A stretch of 64,000 nucleotides of DNA from Novacetimonas cocois (GTDB lineage: Bacteria; Pseudomonadota; Alphaproteobacteria; Acetobacterales; Acetobacteraceae), in assembly GCF_003311635.1 (NCBI RefSeq), contig NZ_QEXL01000002.1, positions 62,001-126,000 of the forward strand, read 5' to 3'. Position 1 is the first letter of the stretch. Each line of letters opens with the position of its first letter. Below are positions 40,367 to 41,671 of this stretch, piece by piece. A program made the position numbers and the translations under genes. The notes below the pieces were generated by a model. The model was given only the letters and a program-made list of their open reading frames with translations, ran no database searches and had not been told where the DNA came from.

Positions 40367-40655
40367 GCTGTATCATCCTCTTTTGAAAATCACTCTCCTG
40401 CACTGTCTAACAATCTGTCATCCCATTTACGACAGGGGAAATGACATGCCATGCGCTCCGTCATCCGGGTGATGCGGAAAGGTGACAGATTTCCGCCATC
40501 CGCAACGCGGCGGATACATGAAGGAACGCATGCGCCGCCGCATTACGGATGGCGGGGCAATCAGATGTTGATCGGGACGGCGTCCTCGTCTATACGCCAG
40601 CGAAAGTTATGCCCCGGTCGGCATCGGGGTCCCCAACGCGCGAAAGTTGTTGAAC

Positions 40656-40886
40656 ATGAAACCCGGCATCCACCCCGACTATCACGAAATCACCGTCATC
40701 ATGACCGACGGGACCGAGTTCAAGACCCGTTCCTGCTATGGCACACCGGGCGCGACCCTGCGTCTGGACGTCGATCCGAAGTCGCATCCGGCGTGGACGG
40801 GCGTGCAGCGCATGCTCGATACTGGGGGCCAGGTGGCGAAGTTCAACAAGAAGTTCGGTGGCCTGGGCCAGCGCAAGAAGTCCTGA
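40656..40886 (+). CDS. rpmE: 50S ribosomal protein L31
   Basis: A 76-residue L31: [29 protein letters not shown] at the N-terminus and [14 protein letters not shown] at the end. L31 bridges the 30S head and 50S central protuberance. The two CxxC pairs of zinc-binding L31 are absent (one Cys only), so it is the zinc-free form. The ribosome site is weak (CGAAAG). A strong hairpin follows at 40933-40967. Confidence 0.95.
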
Positions 40887-40932
40887 GGGGCGTAAAACCT
40901 CCCTCCGCAGTCAGGCCTGCCTGTCAGCACGC

Positions 40933-40972
40933 AAATGCCCGGCCCTTGAAAAAGGGACCGGGCATTTCCATT
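40933..40972 (+). terminator. Terminator hairpin of rpmE, overlapping the hsp20 promoter
   Basis: AAATGCCCGG pairs with CCGGGCATTT (10 bp), with an inner CCCT/AGGG stem and a TTGAAAA loop; CCATTT follows. The U-tract is short, so termination may be partial. Its loop and right flank coincide with the heat-shock promoter elements. Confidence 0.7.
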
Positions 40973-40973
40973 T
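40945..40973 (+). promoter_or_regulatory. Sigma-32 (RpoH)-type promoter of hsp20
   Basis: CTTGAAA at 40945-40951 matches the RpoH -35 exactly; TTCCATTT at 40966-40973 matches the CCCCATNT -10 in six of eight positions; the spacer is 14 bp, within the normal 11-16. Transcription would begin near 40980, just before the first of the three leader hairpins. Confidence 0.6.
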
Positions 40974-40981
40974 CCAGTGTG

Positions 40982-41086
40982 TCGCAATGCCGCATGTCGG
41001 GTTGCGATGAACTACCGGAAATCGCGGTCCGCTCCATATCGAGGGACCGCATGACAACAGGCCTTGCTCACTTTCAGGAGGTTTTC
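40982..41086 (+). promoter_or_regulatory. ROSE-like RNA thermometer in the hsp20 5' leader
   Basis: Three successive hairpins fill the leader. Hairpin 1: TCGCAA (40982-40987) with TTGCGA (41002-41007), enclosing a nested CCG/CGG. Hairpin 2: GCGGTCC (41024-41030) with GGACCGC (41044-41050). Hairpin 3: CUUGCU (41063-41068) with the Shine-Dalgarno AGGAGG (41076-41081), loop CACUUUC. The last has C-G, U-G, U-A, G-G, C-G, U-A pairs, that is the UYGCU anti-SD signature with a G-G mismatch known from ROSE elements, which melt on heating and release the ribosome site of small heat-shock genes. Confidence 0.72.
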
Positions 41087-41671
41087 ATGAGTTACGATTT
41101 TGCCCCCCTGTTCCGCAGCGCGATCGGATTCGACCGTCTGGCGCAACTGGTCGATACGGCGGCGCAGAACCCCGTCAGCCCGTCCTATCCCCCCTACAAC
41201 ATCGAAAAGCTGGCGGAGTCGCAGTACATGCTGACGATGGCGGTGGCGGGGTTCGGGCCGGATGACATCGAACTGACGGTGCAGGACAACACGCTGATCG
41301 TTGCCGGACGCGTGTCCAGCACGCAGCCCGACCGCGAAATGTTGTATCGCGGCATCGCAAAGCGCGCGTTCGAGCGACGCTTCGTGCTGGCCGACCATAT
41401 CGTGGTGGAAAACGCCAACCTCGATAACGGACTGCTGTGCATCGAGGTGCGCCACATCGTTCCCGAGGCGCTGAAGCCACGGCGCATTCCCATTTCGTCC
41501 GGCGCGCGCGCCACGGTTCCGACCCCGGCCGAACATGCCGCGCCCGCGCCGCAGGCGGCCGGTGCCAGCGAACATGCCACAACCGGCTCCGTCCCCGCGC
41601 CGTTGCCAAGCACGTTCGGCGCGCATGATGCGGAGGCCAGTCACGCCGGCGCCGCCCGGCAGGCCGCCTGA
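41087..41671 (+). CDS. Small heat shock protein (Hsp20/IbpA class)
   Basis: A 194-residue alpha-crystallin-type chaperone that holds unfolding proteins for the refolding machinery. The N-terminal arm MSYDFAPLFRSAIGFDRLAQLVDTA and YPPYNIEKLAESQYMLTMAVAGF are typical of class A rhizobial/IbpA proteins; the crystallin core follows, with YRGIAKRAFERRFVLADHIVV and the GLLCIEVRHIVPEALKPRRIPI segment holding the I-x-I anchor. The tail of about 50 residues is unusually long and Ala/Pro/His-rich. AGGAGG lies five bases before the ATG and is sequestered in the leader hairpin. A terminator follows at 41706. Confidence 0.94.
   Translation: MSYDFAPLFRSAIGFDRLAQLVDTAAQNPVSPSYPPYNIEKLAESQYMLTMAVAGFGPDDIELTVQDNTLIVAGRVSSTQPDREMLYRGIAKRAFERRFVLADHIVVENANLDNGLLCIEVRHIVPEALKPRRIPISSGARATVPTPAEHAAPAPQAAGASEHATTGSVPAPLPSTFGAHDAEASHAGAARQAA

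Follow-up and report, generated by a model that had tools for sequence, protein, structure and literature searches.

A probable ROSE-type RNA thermometer in the leader of an IbpA-type hsp20 gene of Novacetimonas cocois and other Acetobacteraceae

The leader of an hsp20 gene in Novacetimonas cocois is very likely a ROSE-type RNA thermometer, and as such it is an ordinary ROSE member, though of a branch that public RNA-family models currently seem to miss. In a window of 64,000 nucleotides (the whole stretch of DNA that was analysed) from this 3.4-Mb genome we observed promoter-like elements, a conserved and covarying leader structure, a ROSE motif and the gene itself (Table 1); from the ROSE-type architecture we infer that translation of this Hsp20 is gated by heat. 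The identification, which an earlier note had proposed, is supported by the UUGCU sequence facing the Shine-Dalgarno sequence (the anti-SD), an unpaired G, three hairpins, the small heat-shock gene, the promoter and covariation.

These features agree with published descriptions of ROSE elements. Such elements carry U(U/C)GCU imperfectly paired with the Shine-Dalgarno sequence (SD) in the 3'-most hairpin (PMC3669281), and here UUGCU (41064-41068) faces AGGAGG. An unpaired or non-canonical G opposite the SD is likewise found, G41066, in either of the two pairing registers considered below. Two to four hairpins are described in leaders of 60 to more than 100 nt (PMC10474464, PMC4166951); the window has three in about 107 nt (from about 40980, a predicted start, to 41086). 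The downstream gene encodes a small heat-shock protein (PF00011; 49% identity to Escherichia coli IbpA over 136 columns of a pairwise alignment), whose closest named relatives among the best-scoring matches are in Novacetimonas maltaceti, Gluconacetobacter entanii and N. hansenii. The fourU class does not fit, as the anti-SD CCUUGCU has two consecutive U where four or more are needed.

Upstream of the leader, CTTGAA (40945-40950), a 17-nt spacer and CCATTT (40968-40973) form what we take to be a sigma-32 (RpoH)-like promoter. These elements and their spacing lead to a predicted transcription start near 40980 (about 40979-40981 from the promoter position), where the earlier note had also placed it.

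Table 1. Features at the hsp20 locus (positions within the window)
Feature	Position	Strand	Evidence
rpmE (ribosomal protein L31), upstream neighbour; ORF from TTG, ATG at 40656	40647..40886	+	PF01197, E 2e-26
Inverted repeat AAATGCCCGGCCCTT-gaaaa-AGGGACCGGGCATTT, holds the hsp20 -35 box	40933..40967	+	0 of 60 flank shuffles as good
-35 element CTTGAA, sigma-32 (RpoH)-like promoter (presumed)	40945..40950	+	sequence and comparison across loci
-10 element CCATTT, spacer 17	40968..40973	+	sequence and comparison across loci
Hairpin H1; bulged G40989 between U40988.G41001 and C40990-G41000; apical Y[G]CC...GGG	40981..41008	+	structure and covariation
Hairpin H2, 7+3 bp, bulged G41031	41024..41050	+	structure and covariation
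Hairpin H3, putative thermosensor; CCUU-[G41066]-CU pairs with AGGAGG	41060..41083	+	folding, alignment
ROSE motif UUGCU (anti-SD)	41064..41068	+	sequence
Shine-Dalgarno AGGAGG	41076..41081	+	sequence
hsp20 (IbpA-type small heat-shock protein, 194 aa)	41087..41671	+	PF00011, E 2.8e-16

The leader was said to fold into three hairpins with perfect stems. Three consecutive hairpins (H1-H3) are indeed present and covary in relatives, but the stems are imperfect: each leaves one G of its 5' strand unpaired (G40989 in H1, G41031 in H2 and G41066 in H3), at a distance of three pairs from the loop in the first two hairpins and of two pairs in the third. The SD AGGAGG (41076-41081) and the facing CUUGCU (41063-41068) lie exactly where the earlier note had read them. 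The G-G mismatch that it placed in the SD hairpin fared less well, being 2.5 kcal/mol weaker than a bulged G41066 (whole-structure energy at 37 C of -32.0 versus -34.5 kcal/mol), and on this energy we place the G-G register below the bulged one. Pair counts fail to separate the two, as 92.2% of cells are paired in the G-G register (five pairs) and 94.4% in the bulged register (eight pairs) of a 49-row alignment. In the bulged register, RNAalifold predicted from these 49 relatives the lower five pairs but no pair on the loop side of the bulge.

Folding energy alone was dropped as evidence for the leader structure: the single sequence has an unexceptional folding energy (z -1.35), 16 out of 200 shuffles being at least as stable, and its minimum-energy fold at 37 C is 5.3 kcal/mol more stable than the comparative structure. 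It is the comparison with relatives, not folding energy alone, that shows a structure exceeding chance. The family loci are the best-scoring ones of the searches; 84 loci gave 73 leaders after removal of eight duplicates and three PF00011 hits of the own genome (the window gene again and two paralogues). Counts of promoter, repeat, motif, bulge and protein refer to 72 leaders and leave out L029, for which no promoter was assignable (for several loci the promoter spacer, and for L055 the entire promoter, was assigned by hand), whereas the 72-row model-fitted alignment includes L029 and leaves out the unmatched L060. The 3' end as set automatically lies short of the ATG, at a TTG, in a few rows.

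Compensatory changes, which the earlier note had suggested looking for in related genomes, were found, mainly in H1 and H2. A plain alignment of 49 of the 72 leaders (A1, picked by eye, without near-duplicates and most of the longest leaders) has 90.5% of its cells paired and a covariation of 0.412; shuffles gave 0.209 (sd 0.010), and slid partners never exceeded 0.220. The 72-row alignment, fitted to a model built from these 49 leaders and hence leaning towards that model (72 of the 73 loci match it at E <=0.05), has 95.1% of cells paired and a covariation of 0.494, against 0.209 shuffled and at most 0.163 slid. Double changes occur in 14 of the 24 pairs over the 72 rows (six of nine in H1, seven of seven in H2, one of eight in H3). 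H3 hardly covaries because the SD is fixed; its pairing with the SD is kept in 94.3% of cells over the 72 leaders. The anti-SD reads UUGCU in 56 out of 72 leaders, CUGCC in 13 (L008, L011, L017, L049, L050, L052-L056, L059, L061 and L083) and UUGC[CA] in three; by our reading of the sequences, the bulged G of the CUGCC type (Asaia, Swaminathania and others) would shift by one position while the rest still pairs.

The model from the 49 leaders recovers all 24 left-out leaders (weakest E 0.042), several of which are close relatives of training rows. Within the own genome only the window leader is significant, the next two matches having E >3. In 190 genomes of the class five matches lay outside the family (E <=0.01); three of them immediately precede an hsp20 gene, one precedes dnaK and one an unrelated gene. 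The model matched neither of two further family genomes in this sample, where the filters were stricter. In a 0.8-Mb alphaproteobacterial genome (G473) the model matches directly upstream of a dnaK start (L092, E 0.005), where the leader seems by eye to hold two bulged-G hairpins; it would be unusual for a reduced genome to control dnaK in a ROSE-like manner.

The search with the ROSE covariance models of Rfam, a check that the earlier note had proposed, taken alone went against the identification: the best that the window leader reached was 20.2 bits with RF02523 (ROSE_3), aligned to H1, against a gathering score of 43, and RF00435 (ROSE) and RF01832 (ROSE_2) gave no match in 40850-41200 at E <=10. 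None of 40 family loci, including that of the window, reached the gathering score of any Rfam ROSE model, and among 16 loci searched with Rfam at E <=10 only L084 had a ROSE match, a sub-threshold one to ROSE_3. The same library did recognise RF00435 above gathering in four paralogue leaders and ROSE_2 at E. coli ibpA; since these positive controls reach gathering, the method works and the ROSE branch of the window is missed by Rfam. The four leaders (L106, L107, L108 and L109) belong to another Hsp20 paralogue, found in other Acetobacteraceae, with a canonical ROSE element.

A second Hsp20 gene of the genome lies outside the window (L033; G000:C12:235916-236320). By eye, its leader has UCGCU before GAGGAGG and a GGATGCC...GGGTCC hairpin, and it is probably another short ROSE element judging from these motifs; our leader model matches it weakly (13.5 bits, E 0.44), and three related leaders (L110-L112) had no Rfam match at E <=1. 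The leader of another Hsp20 gene of the same genome (L031) was seen, also by eye, to be without the ROSE motif.

The window leader resembles the ROSE-like thermometers of Bradyrhizobium japonicum hspA, E. coli ibpA and Pseudomonas ibpA (the last with reported sigma-32 transcription, PMC3669281) in the UUGCU motif, the unpaired G opposite the SD and the U.G wobble, as well as in having two to four hairpins ahead of a small heat-shock gene. It differs from them in that CCUUGCU can pair with the whole SD, leaving out only the G, and in that 13 of the 72 family leaders have CUGCC instead. UUGCU and the geometry of H3 (U.G wobble, bulged G, C-G) are the same as in the crystal structure described for a ROSE-like element in PMC11342760. 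The ROSE-G motif CUGCU, as described in PMC12857270, is similar in placing a G opposite a G at the SD, as in the G-G register, and the CUGC of Asaia-type leaders resembles it; in the window, by contrast, the motif is UUGCU with a wobble, the bulged register is predicted to be the stronger one, and the gene is not an ABC transporter. ROSE is already known in acetic acid bacteria: Table 2 of PMC5756330 lists an RF00435 prediction for hsp20 of Gluconobacter oxydans 621H (GOX_RS07835), with the leader covered by RNA-seq and no start detected. This is likewise an Hsp20 gene of an acetic acid bacterium, and may be of the rpmE-linked type or of the paralogue type that Rfam recognises.

The bulged G in H3, the SD hairpin, is well known for ROSE (PMC11342760, PMC9450479, PMC3669281). 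We observed the same feature repeated upstream. In the 72-row alignment the bulged base of H1 is a G in all 72 rows, followed by CC in all 72; of the 70 rows that have a letter at the H2 bulge, 69 have a G there. We counted hairpins with one bulged base against dinucleotide shuffles; sequences within each set are related, so that the counts are not independent. Of the 72 family leaders, 69 (7.8 in shuffles) hold two or more separate hairpins with a bulged G on the 5' side, and 53 (0.8) hold three or more. Among 21 other alphaproteobacterial leaders (those with a start found among 29 loci, themselves the top-scoring ones from 120 matching genomes), 19 have at least two (2.2 in shuffles) and 14 at least three (0.1). 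For 5'-side bulges of A, C or U, the family leaders score lower than their shuffles and the class set differs from its own by a few counts at most; two or more 3'-side bulges per leader, counted without shuffles, occur in only 1-8 of the 72 leaders for any base.

A wider set, made up of the 30 best loci from 92 matching genomes, gave similar counts for its 14 alphaproteobacterial leaders, which partly overlap the 21: at least two bulged-G hairpins in 14 (0.6 in shuffles) and at least three in six (0.1). All of its 16 leaders from outside the class have at least one (5.6 in shuffles), eight have at least two (1.0) and three have at least three (0.0). Several non-alphaproteobacterial leaders (e.g. 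L152-L156) have the bulged G in the SD hairpin only, while E. coli K-12 ibpA has three bulged-G hairpins, the third with a lower stem of three pairs. The Rfam consensus structures show a bulge in the first hairpin of the RF00435, ROSE_3 and ROSE_2 models and none in the second hairpin of RF00435, so the repeated bulge is partly visible in public models. We found no discussion of the bulged G as a repeated unit in the passages covered, which come from ROSE papers later than the founding ones; PMC3669281 notes that what the upstream hairpins do is not fully understood.

The nearly invariant bulged-G tip of H1 and H2, which a mere spacer hairpin would not need, speaks for an alternative that we consider rather unlikely. 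By analogy with E. coli IbpA, the leader might serve mainly as a feedback site, client-free small heat-shock protein binding its own leader and blocking translation, so that temperature would act via clients and not via melting of the RNA; such feedback could also act on top of a thermometer. The Hsp20 of the window is of the IbpA type and keeps, by alignment, Arg93 and Tyr34 of E. coli IbpA, both of which are needed for self-repression there and are well conserved in alphaproteobacterial IbpAs, where self-suppression is suggested to be conserved (PMC10474464). Regular expressions found a GIAxR-type stretch with the Arg in all 72 family proteins and in 20 of 21 others (the one miss reads GIGARSF), and a YPPYN-type stretch in 59 of the 72. 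The Hsp20 of the same genome whose leader is without the ROSE motif (L031) has by eye no GIAxR stretch. Binding of the protein to the leader is, however, argued from analogy, in Pseudomonas the thermosensing hairpin by itself suffices for thermoregulation (PMC3669281), and the bulged-G tips may serve folding only. A related and somewhat less likely reading would see ROSE as built from repeats of the bulged-G hairpin: the Y[G]C/GG module of the SD hairpin recurs almost invariant upstream in alphaproteobacterial and some other leaders, including that of E. coli ibpA, and one ligand, most simply an IbpA-type small heat-shock protein, might read the upstream hairpins and add protein feedback to the thermometer.

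The promoter lies in a genomic context that is itself conserved. In 66 of the 72 leader loci the same strand carries an L31 motif that ends no more than 250 nt upstream, and the hsp20 -35 box of the window sits within the loop region of an inverted repeat 3' of rpmE. A repeat around the -35 box is present in 60 of the 72 loci (at most three out of 60 flank shuffles being as good), with stem sequences that vary between genera. It accompanies rpmE: 59 of the 66 loci with rpmE directly upstream have it, and only one of the six without. Because of this association, the repeat is probably the terminator or 3'-end hairpin of rpmE, and the plainest reading of the arrangement is that this hairpin occupies some of the same DNA as the hsp20 promoter. 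The stem lacks a following T-run in Asaia-type loci, which makes termination uncertain there, and a pattern scan for terminators in the window did not list the 40933-40967 repeat. That the palindrome persists around the -35 box in so many loci although its stems differ, and does so in Asaia-type loci without a T-run behind it, would also suit a separate heat-shock switch, of DNA or RNA, at the promoter; we hold this to be quite improbable and rank such a free-standing switch below the rpmE terminator, as the presence of the palindrome follows rpmE.

As to temperature, nearest-neighbour estimates put the cost of SD opening in the window leader at 5.4 kcal/mol at 25 C and 3.3 kcal/mol at 42 C, comparable with 5.5 and 4.0 kcal/mol for E. 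coli ibpA and with 2.7-6.9 and 1.4-4.9 kcal/mol for five other family leaders. When G41066 is removed in silico, the cost at 25 C rises to 10.7 kcal/mol. Five other genes of the window were taken as a control; four were without a recognised SD, and mscL, alone usable, also loosens (3.9 to 2.6 kcal/mol), so the fall in opening cost is unspecific. Any hairpin loosens with heat, and for this reason the opening-cost figures are weak evidence. The nearest-neighbour model predicts no full melting: the mean unpaired fraction of the SD rises from 0.18 at 25 C to 0.24 at 42 C in the window leader, and from 0.24 at 25 C to 0.28 at 45 C over the 72 leaders. This small predicted opening, like the modest folding energy, is what an ordinary structured leader would show, with hairpins protecting the 5' end of the mRNA, incidental SD pairing and control by the sigma factor alone, but the retention of SD pairing across the 72 leaders and the recurrence of UUGCU, or of CUGCC with the rest apparently still pairing, make this highly unlikely.

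Under the thermometer reading, an RpoH-type sigma factor would initiate the mRNA near 40980. Masking of the SD at low temperature, melting and heat-induced translation are proposed by analogy with studied ROSE elements: at growth temperature CCUU-[G]-CU of H3 would pair with AGGAGG and keep ribosomes off, and on heating H3, weakened by its bulged G, the U.G wobble below it and a short two-pair tip, would open stepwise so that Hsp20 is made. H1 and H2 would remain folded and may guide or protect H3.

The 72 Acetobacteraceae leaders offer a training set for ROSE models. The nearly invariant bulged-G tip, repeated along the leader, provides a concrete target for mutation and would link this RNA with the known self-repression of IbpA.
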